Positions 29,613 to 34,966 of a stretch of 37,369 bases of DNA are shown in pieces; position 1 is the stretch's first letter; each line of letters starts with the position of its first letter. Position numbers and translations under genes: made by a program. The notes below the pieces were generated by a model that saw only the letters and a program-made list of their open reading frames with translations, had not been told where the DNA came from and ran no database searches. This DNA is from Candidatus Poribacteria bacterium (GTDB lineage Bacteria > Poribacteria > WGA-4E > WGA-3G), in contig JAJEIP010000042.1 of NCBI GenBank assembly GCA_022827885.1, forward strand, positions 1 through 37,369, read 5' to 3'.

Positions 29613-29948
29613 TTAATATCTCTGCAGAGTTGGATCAATCTCGGCTGCCCACTCGTCGATACCCCCTGCGAGATTTTTGGCATCACGGAATCCGTTTTGG
29701 TGTAGGTAGGCGACGGCATAGAGGCTCCGCGTCCCGTGGTGGCAATAGACGACAATTTCTCGGTCGGATGGAAGGTTCTCGACGTGGTGTGGCAATGTGT
29801 TAAGCGGTATTAGCTGAGCACCTTCAAGGTGCACAATGTCATATTCGCTCGGTTCGCGGACATCTAACAAAAACACGGATTCGTTTTCGTCGAGTTTCTG
29901 TTTCAATTCATGCGTCGAAATTTCAGGAAGTGACGGCGTGGTTTGCAT
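29613..29948 (-). CDS. Rhodanese-like domain sulfurtransferase
   Basis: This 111-residue single rhodanese domain has LLDVREPSEYDIVHLEGA and the active-site loop YCHHGTRS with Cys69, which would carry a persulfide. Single-domain rhodaneses move sulfane sulfur to acceptors. It starts 3 bases after the DUF971 stop, with GAGGAAG upstream. Location directly behind the SUF genes suggests sulfur trafficking linked to Fe-S assembly, but a general detoxification role cannot be excluded. Confidence 0.9.
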   Translation of the reverse strand: MQTTPSLPEISTHELKQKLDENESVFLLDVREPSEYDIVHLEGAQLIPLNTLPHHVENLPSDREIVVYCHHGTRSLYAVAYLHQNGFRDAKNLAGGIDEWAAEIDPTLQRY

Positions 29949-29951
29949 TGC

Positions 29952-30347
29952 TCAGTTTTCTTCCTCCGTCTGAATAGGAGACTTTTCATAAAGGGGCACA
30001 CATTCTGGACAAGGACACGTCTCGCGTAGGACTTCAAATGGATAGATACCCGTATCGTGTCCATCGTTCCAACTGAATTGGACCGCGTAACGACCGACTA
30101 ACTGGATGTCAAGCGGTTGAATATCGTCTGAGACCTCAATGAGGGTTATATCTCCGTCGCCTTGCGGTGAAAAGAGGGAATGGACATCTCTGCCTTTGTG
30201 CCGGATGATAGCGCATTCCGCGCACGGGCACATCTGCCGGAGATAGGTGTATGGATACCAACTGACATGTCCGTCCTTCCACGCTATCTGAAAGGCATTG
30301 GGATGTTTCTTGAGAAGTTTCGGTTGTTTCGCTAACCTGTTCGTCAA
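29952..30347 (-). CDS. DUF971 domain protein
   Basis: This 131-residue protein carries one DUF971 domain. The sequence FQIAWKDGH and LRQMCPCAEC is followed after an IQLVGRYAVQFSWNDGHDTGIYPFEVLR stretch by CPCPEC, giving two CxCxxC-type cysteine clusters. DUF971 is found fused to or near Mrp/ApbC-type Fe-S carriers and at the N-terminus of gamma-butyrobetaine hydroxylase, where it binds zinc. The start is TTG 30347; GAGG (30358-30355), seven bases upstream, is the ribosome site and lies within the terminal hairpin of the mobile-element-like sequence described next. No ATG or GTG alternative exists before the domain. Confidence 0.83.
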   Translation of the reverse strand: MTNRLAKQPKLLKKHPNAFQIAWKDGHVSWYPYTYLRQMCPCAECAIIRHKGRDVHSLFSPQGDGDITLIEVSDDIQPLDIQLVGRYAVQFSWNDGHDTGIYPFEVLRETCPCPECVPLYEKSPIQTEEEN

Positions 30348-30354
30348 TGTGCCA

Positions 30355-30505
30355 CCTCACGATAAATCGTGAGGCTTGCTTCTCAGGCTATGGTTCGTAA
30401 CTTTACCTGCATACCCCTGAGGGGTCCAAGCGACCCACGATGCAGAACCTCAGACACTTCCGACTTTGGAAGTAGAACGAACGTTCTAACGTCTTCGAGT
30501 TACTG
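30355..30505 (-). ncRNA. Omega-RNA-like right-end sequence
   Basis: On the minus strand the stretch from 30505 to 30355 contains several GC-rich short stems and ends in ACGAACC...GCCTGAG-AAGCAAG followed by the CCTCACGA hairpin, the layout I associate with TnpB omega RNA scaffolds. What follows directly (30348 downward) would be the guide position and is here the DUF971 start. No nearby TnpB is present, so any function would depend on one elsewhere. Confidence 0.45.
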
Positions 30506-30510
30506 CCTAT

Positions 30511-30540
30511 ATTCTAACAAATTTGACAGGCTTCTGTCAA
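30511..30540 (-). promoter_or_regulatory. Promoter with palindromic -35 region within the mobile-element-like sequence
   Basis: On the minus strand TTGACA (30540-30535), 18 bases and TAGAAT (30516-30511) form a sigma-70-like promoter pointing at DUF971. TTGACAG-AAGC-CTGTCAA (30540-30523) is a perfect 7-base-arm palindrome covering the -35 box and could be an operator. The start would be near 30504, so the transcript would begin with the omega-RNA-like sequence. Confidence 0.55.
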
Positions 30541-30628
30541 GCAAAAAGGAGCGGTATTCCTTCTCGCCTTAAAAGACGAGGTTTCCATACCGAAGATTTT
30601 GATGATGTAGGTTGGGGCACACGGCGGG

Positions 30629-30651
30629 AGAAAAGCGCGTGTGGCTTTTCT
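30629..30651. other. Hairpin after the DUF59 gene
   Basis: AGAAAAGC (30629-30636) pairs perfectly with GCTTTTCT (30644-30651). It lies 17 bases downstream of the DUF59 gene stop (minus strand). There is no T run on either side, so intrinsic termination is only weakly supported. Confidence 0.4.
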
Positions 30652-30667
30652 AAAGACCCGACTACTA

Positions 30668-30967
30668 TTAAAAAATACCGAGTTCGTCCTTTGCGTCTTC
30701 GGTCATCAGTTCTGGTGTCCAACGCGGGGTCCAAACGACGTTAACATTGACTTCCTCAACACCCTCCATCTGCTGCGTGACATGCTGTGTCCCGTTCACA
30801 ATTTGCCCGCCAGCGGGGCATCCAGGGCTTGTGAGGGTCATTGTAATGTCTACAGTTGTGTCGTTGATGTCAACACCGTAGATAAGTCCCATATCGACGA
30901 TATTGATCCCAATTTCCGGATCGATAATTTGTTTGATACTTTCTAATACGCTTTCTTCGGATACCAT
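30668..30967 (-). CDS. DUF59/MIP18 family Fe-S assembly protein (SufT-like)
   Basis: This 99-residue protein is a single DUF59 (MIP18/Cia2-like) domain with IDPEIGINIVDMGLIYGV and TLTSPGCPAGGQI, whose Cys is the conserved residue of the family, and VWTPRWTPELMTEDA at the end. DUF59 proteins such as SufT and PaaD-like proteins assist Fe-S cluster maturation of target proteins. Its place 33 bases behind the Rieske gene and in the SUF cluster fits that role. It has no Mrp ATPase domain. Confidence 0.9.
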   Translation of the reverse strand: MVSEESVLESIKQIIDPEIGINIVDMGLIYGVDINDTTVDITMTLTSPGCPAGGQIVNGTQHVTQQMEGVEEVNVNVVWTPRWTPELMTEDAKDELGIF

Positions 30968-31000
30968 CGAGATTCCCTCCTACGAAGTTTGGGTAATTAA

Positions 31001-31312
31001 TTAGTCGACGCTGACGAAAATGTCATCGTCTTCAATTTTGACGGTGTAACAATCGACAGGTTCGACAGCGGGCATACAGAGCGGTTTTCCAGTTTTCACA
31101 CAAAAACGTGCACCATGCCGTGGACACTCTATCTCGTCTCCAGTGAACCAGCCTTCCCCCAAAGGACCGCCATCGTGTGTGCAAACGTCTTCCATAGCGT
31201 AGAACTCTCCATTAACATTAAAGAGTAGCACGGGAACGAAGTCAACTTCGACCAATTGTTTCGTGCCGGGTGGCACTTCGCTTACTTTTGCAACTTTATA
31301 GAATTCTGCCAT
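31001..31312 (-). CDS. Rieske-type [2Fe-2S] ferredoxin
   Basis: This 103-residue protein is a stand-alone Rieske domain: CTHDGGPLG and CPRHGARF give the two Cys and two His ligands of the cluster. It looks like the ferredoxin components of ring-hydroxylating dioxygenases, yet lies in a SUF cluster, where such Rieske proteins are often found behind SufU. It may donate electrons to cluster assembly or be a client. Start ATG 31312 has AAAGGAAA upstream. Gap to SufU is 37 bases. Confidence 0.92.
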   Translation of the reverse strand: MAEFYKVAKVSEVPPGTKQLVEVDFVPVLLFNVNGEFYAMEDVCTHDGGPLGEGWFTGDEIECPRHGARFCVKTGKPLCMPAVEPVDCYTVKIEDDDIFVSVD

Positions 31313-31349
31313 AGTTTCCTTTTTCTCGGTAAAGATACGGTTCTTGTTT

Positions 31350-31736
31350 TTATTCCTCTTCGCCGGGCCAACCTTTGATACCGTAAGCACCGGCTTTGAG
31401 AACCTTGAGTGCCAATAATGCACATTTGAGACGGACGGGACCTAAGGGAATACCGATCATATCTAAGATGTCGTCTCGCGAGAGCTTCTTGACTTCCGTA
31501 AGACTTTTACCTTCAATCTCCTCAGTTAACATAGAAGCAGCAGCTTGACTAATGGTACAACCGTGCCCGGAAAAACGCACCTCTGTAATAACATCGTCTT
31601 CAACAATGAGGTCAATGCGGATTCGATCCCCGCAAAGTGGATTGTCTTCTTCATGGGAGATATTAGGATTCGGCAATGTTCCATAGTTGCTCGGATTTTC
31701 GTAATGGTCAAGCAACTCTTCCTGATATACGTTCAT
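31350..31736 (-). CDS. sufU: Fe-S assembly scaffold/sulfur acceptor SufU
   Basis: This 128-residue SufU/IscU-like protein has the three conserved cysteines in NPLCGD, GHGCTIS and RLKCALLA, with the insertion between the second and third that marks SufU. In Gram-positive-type SUF systems SufU is a zinc-dependent acceptor of sulfur from SufS. Its ATG overlaps the SufS stop in an ATGA, implying tight coupling, and AAGGAG lies seven bases upstream. A longer start at 31784 would lie inside sufS and is rejected. Confidence 0.93.
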   Translation of the reverse strand: MNVYQEELLDHYENPSNYGTLPNPNISHEEDNPLCGDRIRIDLIVEDDVITEVRFSGHGCTISQAAASMLTEEIEGKSLTEVKKLSRDDILDMIGIPLGPVRLKCALLALKVLKAGAYGIKGWPGEEE

Positions 31737-32998
31737 CCCACGCTCCTTCTCTGGCTCCGAGTCATTAGTTTTTGTGTTCTGCACAGCCCTTCGTATAACC
31801 GGTCCACTTCTTCGATTGTATTATAAAGGTAAAAACTCGCACGAGCAGTGGCAATAACATCTAACCGCTTCATCAGCGGTTGTGCACAGTGGTGTCCTGC
31901 GCGGATAGCAATACCGTGCGTATCCAAGACACCAGCCACGTCATGCGGATGGACACCCTCCATGTTAAAAGAGATAACACCTGCTTTTTGATGCGGTGAA
32001 GACGGGCCATAGAGCGTGAGACCTTCGATTTCTTTTAAGCGTTTGTGTGCGTATTTTAGGAGTTCTTGTTCGTGGACCTGAAGGGCAGCTAAATTTGCGT
32101 CTGTAATGTAGTCAACGGCATGTCCAAGTCCGATCGCTTCGGCGATACTTGGGGTCCCTGCCTCGAACTTGGCGGGAAGTTCAGCATAGCTGGATACCTC
32201 GCGTTCTACGCTCCGAATCATTGAACCACCACCGAGGAAAGGGGGCATCTCCTCAAGCAGTTCCAATTTACCGTATAGGACACCGATACCCGTCGGACCA
32301 CACATTTTATGTCCAGAGAACGCCAGGAAATCACAATCCAGCTGCTGAACGTCGACCTGAAAATGCGGCACCGATTGCGCTGCATCAACAACGACCTTTG
32401 CGCCAACAGCGTGTGCAGCCGTAATAACGGACTGGATCGGATTAATCGTCCCGAGTACATTAGAAACATGCCCTATAGCGACAAGTTTCGTTCTTTCAGT
32501 GAGGTGGTCCTGAAGTTGTGTGAAGTCAAGCAACCCTTCGTCAGTTATCTCCATAAACCGAAGTACCGCGCCAGTGCGCTGTGCCAGCAACTGCCAAGGC
32601 ACGAGGTTGCTATGATGTTCCATGACGGTGAGAACAATTTCGTCGCCTGCTTGGATGTTCGCGCTGCCCCAACTGTAAGCGACGAGGTTAATGGATTCCG
32701 TCGTGTTCCGTGTGAAAATAATCTGCCGTGCCCGCGGGGCGTTAACCAACTGTGCTACCTTCTCACGAGCCGTTTCATACTGTGCCGTCGCCTCTTCTGA
32801 GATACGGTAGATACCGCGATGGATGTTAGAGCGATACGTATCGTAATAGGCATCCATCGCTTCAACGACCGGGCGCGGTGTTTGTGTTGACGCGGCATTG
32901 TCGAGGAAAGCCAACGGTGGGGTCGTCGCAAAAATCGGAAAATCTGCGCGGATTCTCTCCACATCAAGAGGACGAAACTGAGATGTATCCATGTTCAT
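31733..32998 (-). CDS. sufS: Cysteine desulfurase SufS
   Basis: This 421-residue PLP enzyme of the SufS/CsdA type removes sulfur from cysteine as a persulfide. It has HHSNLVPW near the middle, the PLP lysine in SGHKMCGPTGIG, and the active-site cysteine in RAGHHCAQPLMKR. It works with SufU, whose start overlaps its stop. The N-terminus LDVERIRADFPIF is typical for the family. Upstream lies a spacer of 135 bases holding polypurine/CTTCCA repeats before the glutaredoxin gene. Confidence 0.95.
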   Translation of the reverse strand: MNMDTSQFRPLDVERIRADFPIFATTPPLAFLDNAASTQTPRPVVEAMDAYYDTYRSNIHRGIYRISEEATAQYETAREKVAQLVNAPRARQIIFTRNTTESINLVAYSWGSANIQAGDEIVLTVMEHHSNLVPWQLLAQRTGAVLRFMEITDEGLLDFTQLQDHLTERTKLVAIGHVSNVLGTINPIQSVITAAHAVGAKVVVDAAQSVPHFQVDVQQLDCDFLAFSGHKMCGPTGIGVLYGKLELLEEMPPFLGGGSMIRSVEREVSSYAELPAKFEAGTPSIAEAIGLGHAVDYITDANLAALQVHEQELLKYAHKRLKEIEGLTLYGPSSPHQKAGVISFNMEGVHPHDVAGVLDTHGIAIRAGHHCAQPLMKRLDVIATARASFYLYNTIEEVDRLYEGLCRTQKLMTRSQRRSVG

Positions 32999-33014
32999 TA
33001 CCTAAGTAAGGACG

Positions 33015-33100
33015 GAATCAAAAAATAGAAGGAAGGGGATGGAAGGAGGGAAGGGCGGAAGGATGGGTGCCCAAACTTCCAATCTTCCAGTCTTCCAACC
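33015..33100. repeat. Purine-rich tract, hairpin and CTTCCA repeats between sufS and glutaredoxin gene
   Basis: A purine-rich tract, about 50 bases with few pyrimidines (33018-33067), is followed by a GGAAG-GA-TGGG / CCCA-AA-CTTCC hairpin (33057-33080). Three CTTCCA units then follow with 8-base spacing (33076-33100). It lies within the SUF transcript on the minus strand. Confidence 0.55.
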
Positions 33101-33133
33101 AAGCCGCTTCCAACCTTGTCTTTGTCCATGTGC

Positions 33134-33475
33134 CTATCTGCTTGGAAACCCAATACTGACAGCGGCAGGCCCATGATCCTCACACGCCTGATCGGTCGGA
33201 ACGTCGGTTTCAGCATCGCTGGATTTAACGATCCCTTCTGAAACCAGATAGTGTTCGACTTCATCCCCACTGACATCGGCGAGCATTATATCGTCAATTT
33301 GGACGCACGGCTGATAAGGCTGCCGCGTCTTCTGAACCATTTCACGATAGTTGTTTTCGTTGTTAATGATGTCTCTATCTTCATACGCCAAACCGTATTT
33401 GGCGAAGATGGCACGGACACCATTGCTCCATCCGCAGACGGGCTTCATGTAAGCGATAATTTTGGGTTGACTCAT
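33134..33475 (-). CDS. Monothiol glutaredoxin-like protein (CGWS)
   Basis: This 113-residue protein has a glutaredoxin fold with MKPVCGWSNGVRAIF near the start. The active site is Cys14-Gly-Trp-Ser, so monothiol rather than the dithiol CPYC, and VQIDDIMLADVSGDEVEHYL matches the conserved glutathione-binding end. A C-terminal extension of about 30 residues carries one further Cys. Monothiol glutaredoxins bind and pass [2Fe-2S] clusters, so within the SUF cluster it is a likely cluster carrier. Its site differs from the CGFS of classical Grx4/Grx5. Confidence 0.82.
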   Translation of the reverse strand: MSQPKIIAYMKPVCGWSNGVRAIFAKYGLAYEDRDIINNENNYREMVQKTRQPYQPCVQIDDIMLADVSGDEVEHYLVSEGIVKSSDAETDVPTDQACEDHGPAAVSIGFPSR

Positions 33476-33493
33476 GGTGAGTTACTCCTTTTT

Positions 33494-33612
33494 TGGGGTT
33501 ATCGGTTGTCGGTTATTAGTTAAAAAGCGATGTGGTAAACGAAAACCTCTTAACTCTCACTGCGAGGCAAACTGAAAGGGGTGCGTAGCAACCCGCACTG
33601 AAAACTATTCAA
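33494..33612. repeat. Dispersed intergenic repeat, copy B
   Basis: This is the same family as 222-316: a GGTTATxAGTTAA stretch, CCTCTTAACT, and the 42-base module (33571-33612) that matches copy A at 35 of 42 positions. The module runs into the last codons and stop of sufD (minus strand, stop at 33605-33607), so the repeat supplies the end of that gene. Confidence 0.7.
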
Positions 33613-34966
33613 GTTTACGCGTAACAGACGTATTCAACTCATCCCGAACAGATTCTAACGGGATCCGTTGCATGACAGGTTCAAAAAATCCGTCAATGAT
33701 CAGCTTCTCCGCATCTGTGTAGGACAGGCCGCGGCTCATCAGGTAAAAAACCTGATCGGTATCAATCTTTCCAGCAGTTGCACCGTGTGTACACCGCACC
33801 TCATGTGCCTCAATTTCCAGTCCTGGCAAGGTATCTGCATGTGCACGTTCGCTGAGCAGAAGGTTATCATTCTTCTGATACGCATCGGTATGGTTCGCCG
33901 ACGGATAGACATAAATGTTTCCACCCCATGCCGTCTGCGACCTATCTTTTAAGACAGTCCGATACAGGAGGTCACTGGTGGTATGCGGTGAAGTATGTTC
34001 CTGTGCCGTGCTAACATCGAAATGTTGACGGGCATCCGTGAAAGCCAATCCGAGCATTCGCGCGCTGCTGCCAGCACCATCCAAAAGAGCGGCTTGATTT
34101 ATTTTGCTAAACCTACTACCGAATGTGGCAGTGACCCAGCAGAGCTGCGCGTCCCTGGCGACAATAGCACGGTGCGAAGCGAAGTTCCAGACCTGTCGAT
34201 TCCAACCTTGAACTTGCACATAAGTCACGTTGGCATTTTGTCCTGCGAAAATCTCGACTGCACCACTATGTAAGCCGCTCGTCTCTGGATGTGTAGACGA
34301 GTTGTCCTCCAGAATCGCAACCTCACTGCCTTCTTCAGCAATGATAAGCGTGTGTGATAGATCCGCATATTCCGTTTCGGACATCCTAATGTAGACGCGA
34401 AGCGGCACTTCAACTTTTACGCCTTTTGGGATATGTAACAGATAACCGCCTTGCCAGAAAGCACCGTGGAGCGCATCAAACTTGTTGTGTTGCGCAATAT
34501 TCCCGCTCTTTAGCGTCGTTTCGAGGGTGACCGCCCTGTTCATGAAGTAGGTACGCAGGAGTTCTGGACGTTCTTGCAGCGCAGTCGGGAGATGTGCAAA
34601 GTAGACCCCTTTTTCTTTCAGAATTGGCATAGCAGAACTGTGCTGAAGCTGTCCATCGACTTGCACCAAGAGTCCAACTGTTTCTGTGGCAGGGTCCTCT
34701 ATATTTTCTGCAGATCCTTCACCGTTTGTCGGCAGATTCGGATAATATTTTTCAAGTGCGAAGCCACGCATCGATCGCCGACTCCGGCGCCAATAGTCTT
34801 GAGTGCGGATATCAACGGTGCGTCGCCACACATCATCTTTCGTCGTATGGGGCATCGGCAAGGATTCATAAAGCGCGTAAGCCTCCAGCCGTTTTTCACG
34901 CATCCATTTTGGTTCAGTTTCTGATATTTTTTGAAGGAATTCTTTTGAAAATTCGCCTTTTTGCAA
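33605..34966 (-). CDS. sufD: Fe-S cluster assembly protein SufD
   Basis: This 453-residue SufD has the family pattern EPKWMREKRLEAY near the start, a beta-helix core, and the C-terminal [27 protein letters not shown] segment shared by SufB and SufD. SufD with SufB and SufC forms the scaffold SufBCD. The start is TTG 34966 with AAGGA upstream; no ATG precedes the conserved EP-W region. The last codons lie in a dispersed repeat. It is 147 bases downstream of sufB. Confidence 0.92.
   Translation of the reverse strand: MQKGEFSKEFLQKISETEPKWMREKRLEAYALYESLPMPHTTKDDVWRRTVDIRTQDYWRRSRRSMRGFALEKYYPNLPTNGEGSAENIEDPATETVGLLVQVDGQLQHSSAMPILKEKGVYFAHLPTALQERPELLRTYFMNRAVTLETTLKSGNIAQHNKFDALHGAFWQGGYLLHIPKGVKVEVPLRVYIRMSETEYADLSHTLIIAEEGSEVAILEDNSSTHPETSGLHSGAVEIFAGQNANVTYVQVQGWNRQVWNFASHRAIVARDAQLCWVTATFGSRFSKINQAALLDGAGSSARMLGLAFTDARQHFDVSTAQEHTSPHTTSDLLYRTVLKDRSQTAWGGNIYVYPSANHTDAYQKNDNLLLSERAHADTLPGLEIEAHEVRCTHGATAGKIDTDQVFYLMSRGLSYTDAEKLIIDGFFEPVMQRIPLESVRDELNTSVTRKLE

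Follow-up and report, generated by a model that had tools for sequence, protein, structure and literature searches.

A 259-bp mobile element without genes interrupts the start of a DUF971 gene in a genome of Candidatus Poribacteria, and it is probably a non-autonomous IS200/IS605 element of tnpB lineage whose RNA may be used by TnpB proteins in trans. We lean, by a slender balance, towards a broader reading, in which an IS605/TnpB lineage is specialised for start codons: its left-end hairpin would dock a substitute Shine-Dalgarno sequence, essential genes would go on being translated, and the lineage would include a tnpB-less member that uses its own promoter to make a guide RNA against gene starts. 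The window, by which we mean the whole stretch of 37,369 nucleotides analysed, holds the element at 30343-30601 on the minus strand; the original prediction placed it at 30349-30591, which differs slightly and trims both ends. A congener, G041, carries a 262/263 identical copy (99.6%) at an unrelated locus with the same limits; the match begins at query position 6 and breaks off at 268, which fixes the limits of the element.

The features on which the argument rests are the following, and they include everything that the original prediction had named: the CCTCACGAT/ATCGTGAGG hairpin, the GAAGCAAG stretch (which precedes the terminal hairpin at the right end), a second hairpin, the promoter, the palindrome over its -35 box and a TTG 7 bases past GAGG.

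30343..30601, minus strand: complete non-autonomous IS200/IS605-type element, 259 bp, with the left end at 30601 and the right-end TTGAC at 30347-30343
30602..30605, minus strand: target TCAT, adjoining the left end; joined to the G that came next, it held the former DUF971 ATG start
30552..30592, minus strand: left-end hairpin CGGTAT...ATACCG, at a position common to the other copies tested
30546..30551, plus strand: Shine-Dalgarno AAGGAG, pointing outward from the base of the left-end hairpin on the strand opposite to the element; it has no use at this site, where the plus strand has no gene beyond it
30511..30540, minus strand: predicted sigma-70-type promoter TTGACA-18-TAGAAT, kept in copies of the family
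30523..30540, minus strand: operator-like palindrome TTGACAgaagccTGTCAA (TTGACA...TGTCAA) over the -35 box, present in most copies and in tnpB elements
30377..30504, minus strand: structured core RNA, probably omega-RNA-like, identified by covariation, matches to model R1 and likeness to tnpB 3' ends
30416..30421, minus strand: pseudoknot 5' arm CUCAGG, pairing with 30382-30387
30382..30387, minus strand: pseudoknot 3' arm CCUGAG, pairing with 30416-30421
30355..30374, minus strand: right-end terminal hairpin CCTCACGAT-TT-ATCGTGAGG, with GAGG in its 3' arm
30345..30347, minus strand: candidate DUF971 TTG start codon, from the TTGAC end of the element
30323..30342, minus strand: putative guide position GAACAGGTTAGCGAAACAAC, the first 20 nt past the element; with TCAT it equals the empty allele
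29952..30347, minus strand: DUF971-type protein (PF06155 GBBH-like_N), 131 aa
30668..30967, minus strand: upstream FeS_assembly_P (DUF59/SufT-like) gene, the ancestral operon neighbour of DUF971

On the minus strand the element begins CAAAATCTTCGG and closes CATTGAC; it has subterminal hairpins at both ends, no terminal inverted repeats and, by comparison with the empty site, no target duplication, and no ORF of tnpA or tnpB kind was found inside it. The predicted promoter (30540..30511) matches the consensus at 11 of 12 positions, compared with 0.3 such promoters per region in shuffled sequence, and the predicted 5' end of the core RNA (30504) lies about 7 nt past the -10 box. The element region also folds better than its shuffles (z = -4.6).

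Sequence searches of genomes, on which all copy counts here are based, found three more right-half copies in the same genome (5.1 Mb, 148 contigs) at 90-92% identity, adjoining bamA, a tolB-like gene and a gene for a protein of 1,300 residues. The RNA pattern occurs in 28 database contigs, every one of which bears the label Candidatus or uncultured Poribacteria, and viral contigs gave no match. The ends are those of tnpB-bearing elements, the left of TCAT^CAA..TTCGG..GGAAACC type and the right GAAGC(AC)AAGCC-hairpin-TTGAC. The own genome has 26 PF07282 matches; several of the resident tnpB elements have the left end in common with the element (in L031, TTCAT^CAATATTCGGACAGGAGACCCC...GGGGAGGAAGGTCC) and likewise the right end (in L031-L033, GAAGCACAAGCCC-hairpin-GGGTGCC/CTATTGAC), and elements with intact tnpB in congeners (L140, L068, L071) have the same ends. 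A search for tnpB elements sharing these ends had been suggested as a check, and it found them in the own genome and in the genus; together with the near-identical copy in G041, this bears out the proposal of a gene-less IS200/IS605-type element. We envisage a derivative of the tnpB lineage that has lost tnpB but retains the hairpins of both ends, the promoter of the left end and an omega-RNA-like transcript that stands alone, and which a Y1 transposase would move in trans. No Y1 transposase with the ends of this element was found, though both the genus and the own genome carry Y1 genes: in the congeners examined, the left end of full IS605 elements is of TTTAAC type, contig C59 of the own genome holds an unrelated Y1 element, and a left-end match adjoins one congener Y1 gene (L152).

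Two further observations concern the relatives of the element. L144 (G053:C41), also gene-less, is a plain deletion that consists of the left end, the promoter, the last 31 codons of tnpB and the right end. The tnpB elements L236-L265 have a structured leader of about 66 nt (GTTGGCAGACA...GCGTAACCGCAAGGTTACG...GGGGTTAA) between promoter and tnpB, highly conserved and present in almost all congeners (in the own genome at C143:117392 and C2:14145), which is possibly a regulatory RNA of tnpB.

Most copies of this family lie exactly at gene starts. Both ends could be defined for 28 copies, a count in which L128 and L133 are one same insertion, and each of these has TCAT or TCAC as its target. The complement of the target (ATGA or GTGA) opens an ORF of at least 60 codons reading away from the element in 22 of the 28, and in 21 the other flank also bears a Shine-Dalgarno sequence, so that insertion has parted the Shine-Dalgarno from its start codon. 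Both conditions together hold at 5.1% of 5,602 control TCAY sites (P about 1e-21), and at 2.8% of the 1,035 TCAY sites outside long ORFs (P about 1e-27). At bamA, the ancestral AGGAGGAGATTGATC^ATGAATG is uninterrupted in G027 and G041. Copies at start codons lie antisense to the host gene, insertion in sense, as at DUF971, being found in 1 of 28. In one subgroup (L128, L129, L130, L132, L133 and L135) the target is TCAC rather than TCAT; TCAC being the complement of GTGA, the start codons would be GTG.

Read on the gene strand, the left end consists of an A-rich stretch, AAGGAG or similar, the hairpin and 5-11 nt before the host start codon. Of the 43 copies tested, 42 have a Shine-Dalgarno sequence at the base of the hairpin (26/27 element copies with a clear stem and 16/16 tnpB-type or other copies), compared with 7-10% in shuffled local sequence; explicit stems were used for this count, given that weak A/U pairs lengthen the stem and minimum-energy folds therefore undercount. 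With the hairpin excluded, the Shine-Dalgarno lies 7-13 nt from the host start codon. We propose that insertions into start codons survive by means of outward translation signals at the element ends: at the left end, the hairpin would bridge the gap between the Shine-Dalgarno at its foot and the host start, and the gene would be translated. The 43 left ends are related, so that their common Shine-Dalgarno is conservation and not independent origin, and it could instead be required by the transposase.

Intrinsic target choice alone might produce the same bias, if the true target were longer (for instance TTTCAT with a nearby CTCC) and translation rescue played no role. Many targets of the family do read TTTCAT, and tnpB-bearing elements of the group also lie at ORF starts, with a weaker bias (6/12, in a count that left out a few regex matches inside tnpB). 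However, the Shine-Dalgarno at the hairpin base is retained while the hairpin itself varies, and insertions at genes as important as bamA require continued translation; we regard target choice alone as unlikely.

Variant left ends were also seen. In L126 an insert whose ends are complementary has enlarged the hairpin loop to 108 nt, and the hairpin base, the Shine-Dalgarno and the start-codon spacing are all retained. L037 and L045, tnpB elements of the own genome with a TTATC-type target, likewise carry AAGG/GAGGA where the left-end hairpin begins to pair, and their target adjoins an ATG; this hints that outward ribosome sites may extend beyond the TCAY group.

The core RNA is a conserved scaffold with a pseudoknot, adjoining the right end. 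When 24 copies are aligned, five helices and the pseudoknot are borne out: 92.2% of cells are paired, whereas column shuffles give 82.4% and slid alignments no more than 46.8%; 14 pairs are changed on both sides, and covariation is 0.316 as against 0.150. The pseudoknot arms vary together (CUCAGG/CCUGAG in the window, elsewhere CUCGGG/CCCGAG, GCGGU/ACCGC and GCAGU/ACUGC), although this helix scores only 69.9% paired, the second subtype being shifted by one column in the alignment. The covariance model, R1, recovers 4 copies in the own genome; of the 38 genomes that represent the genus, 17 are positive, with up to 10 copies per genome. Many copies (L107, L115-L138), unlike the window type, have an extra 5' domain between promoter and core, with the sequence GGCAAGTCGGAAGTGTCTGCC...GGACACG...CGTGTCC or TGGAAATGGCGA...TCGCATACCACACATTTCCA.

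No copy of the core RNA was found to adjoin a tnpB gene or to overlap the 3' end of one. Comparison of the element with the tnpB right ends of its own genome by blastn gave no match, and homology was therefore sought with the covariance model. When R1 is run on 21 loci of tnpB type, its two best matches, in L261 and L206 (E 0.09 and 0.23, weak scores when taken alone), fall on the tnpB 3' end and align GGGCnGCUUG...CCC-nUCG; the best-pair Smith-Waterman alignment of the core with tnpB 3' ends was marginal. The tnpB elements of L031 type keep the order seen in the core RNA, in which a hairpin and GUGG come first, then two pseudoknot arms with GUAAG between them, and last GAAGC, the terminal hairpin and TTGAC; no counterpart of its 5' half was found in the tnpB elements. 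Because these pieces, each weak, are taken together with the position of the RNA and the anatomy of omega RNA (PMC8612924, PMC10097598), we judge the core RNA to be quite probably omega-RNA-like; since no copy adjoins tnpB, we do not class it as omega RNA. Its guide would be GAACAGGTTAGCGAAAC, over the DUF971 start. The 20-base sequence of TCAT and the first 16 guide bases, TCAT+GAACAGGTTAGCGAAA, has exact matches in three congeners (G027, G036 and G041) and none in the own genome, which is what a guide directed at the empty allele would lead one to expect. The original prediction of an omega-RNA-like leader with its guide position on the DUF971 start is supported by these matches, by the covariation and by the likeness to tnpB 3' ends. 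TnpB proteins acting in trans may use the element RNA, with the flank as guide, to cleave empty sites, and the element would thereby be regained; other work has proposed, and found support for, such guide-RNA-based retention of elements by TnpB (PMC8612924, PMC11870625).

Two other accounts of the RNA have to be weighed. With ends and no transposase gene, the element is of the kind called PATE (palindrome-associated transposable element), known from IS605 as ends-only elements that may keep a tnpB 3' remnant, for example one of 271 nt in Halanaerobium hydrogeniformans (PMC7290912), and one member of the present family is itself a plain deletion with 31 tnpB codons. The RNA might then be a functionless, decaying remnant of tnpB, and the start-codon bias might arise as other insertions are lethal. 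Compensatory changes in several RNA helices and a conserved 5' half that is absent from tnpB are against this, as are a promoter retained with its +1 at or just before the RNA 5' end and the intergenic TCAY control, which gives 2.8% compared with 75% for the family; we give it perhaps the same small chance as target choice alone. Less probable still is a cis-acting RNA (riboswitch, attenuator or ribozyme) spread with the transposon. An Rfam search at gathering and relaxed thresholds gave no match, and at DUF971 the RNA does lie in a 5' leader, but almost every other copy runs antisense to the gene beside it, where the RNA can be no leader, and the RNA is collinear with the omega-RNA end of tnpB. 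Self-splicing, as in an IStron, and a riboswitch were both set aside on account of this antisense orientation to the host gene, which most copies have.

At DUF971 the insertion can be compared with its empty site. Every one of the 38 genomes in the genus set has the gene and, among the 30 loci inspected, only that of the window carries the insertion, the 29 congeners being without it; a comparison of the region upstream of DUF971 in relatives had been suggested, and the orthologues indeed lack the element. G027, G036 and G041 have the exact empty site TCAT^GAACAGG at the orthologous locus, within ...ACCTRCATCAT|GAACAGGTTAGCG (the left part in G027 and G041 differs by one base), and their DUF971 begins with ATGAACAGG; the window reads ...CTACATCAT|element|GAACAGGTTAGCG. 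Insertion 3' of TCAT split the start codon AT^G, and the frame now runs TTG ACG AAC AGG, with TTGAC contributed by the element. Since an in-frame TGA lies 12 bases upstream and the first 23 codons contain no further in-frame ATG, GTG or TTG, this TTG alone is available as a start. GAGG stands 7 bases before it, and because GAGG is paired within the 3' arm of the terminal hairpin, translation of DUF971 may be weak. In close congeners DUF971 follows closely behind the DUF59 (SufT-like) gene, and no obvious promoter of its own was seen there. DUF971 has here gained a predicted promoter, and we infer that both this promoter and the TTG are used. The element would now provide promoter, leader, GAGG and TTG, with GAGG-7-TTG at the right end doing a job analogous to that of the left-end Shine-Dalgarno; the prediction that it supplies promoter and ribosome site thus holds at the level of sequence and extends to the start codon. 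The surroundings are a SUF-type Fe-S locus (29613-34966 of the window, minus strand) with SufD-like, glutaredoxin, SufS-like, SufU-like, Rieske, DUF59, DUF971 and rhodanese genes.

The genes flanking the window copy are about 89% identical to those of G041 over sufT and upstream, and locally up to 96% in DUF971. As the element itself is 99.6% identical, it would appear to have moved recently or horizontally, and genome comparison shows the insertion at DUF971, seen in the window genome alone, to be recent. The original prediction had gone further and proposed a domesticated element, now an mRNA leader, with possible RNA-mediated control of sulfur or Fe-S genes; on this reading selection would maintain the leader for its control of DUF971 and Fe-S genes. 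The promoter with its operator-like palindrome, the structured leader and the GAGG inside a hairpin would suit such a role, but the absence of the element upstream of DUF971 in the congeners inspected, the near-identical copy at an unrelated gene of another species and the further copies at unrelated genes such as bamA and the tolB-like gene largely refute it, leaving it very improbable. By its distribution the group is best regarded as a mobile family and not as a sulfur regulator.

Genes entered by mobile elements are usually broken. If the ends of this element truly replace the host ribosome-binding site, a transposon would have a simple way to live in essential genes; this would also explain how guide RNAs of TnpB lineage come to address the starts of genes, from which regulators like TldR might plausibly arise, and the tnpB-less members would represent a clean natural case of trans-acting guide RNAs. 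A search of the open literature, which leaves most subscription papers outside, returned no paper on start-codon insertion with a substitute Shine-Dalgarno and none on TnpB in Poribacteria, and the novelty of the former is provisional.

Guide RNAs encoded apart from their nuclease are known as the stand-alone trans omega RNAs of IscB in Ktedonobacter. The separation of guide RNA and nuclease is the same there, but those RNAs belong to the IscB family and not to a mobile start-codon element. PATEs (PMC7290912) resemble the Poribacteria element in being short and gene-less, with both hairpin ends and a tnpB 3' remnant with the right end kept, and they are moved in trans, as the Poribacteria element would be; the latter differs in keeping a left-end promoter directly before a conserved, reorganised RNA that is probably omega-RNA-like, and its family, compared with one copy of the PATE, spans the genus and beyond and is inserted precisely at start codons. 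With the omega RNA (reRNA) of ISDra2 TnpB (PMC8612924, PMC10097598) it has in common an RNA that finishes at the right end, a guide (here putative) beyond the element, a pseudoknot and a target motif equal to the left-flank sequence, whereas the Poribacteria RNA does not overlap tnpB, has its own predicted promoter and has a 5' half unrelated to tnpB. Finally, the RNA-guided TldR repressors (PMC13418256) likewise connect an RNA of TnpB lineage to gene starts; the Poribacteria element, in contrast, has no nuclease-dead TnpB and no sign of a regulatory target.
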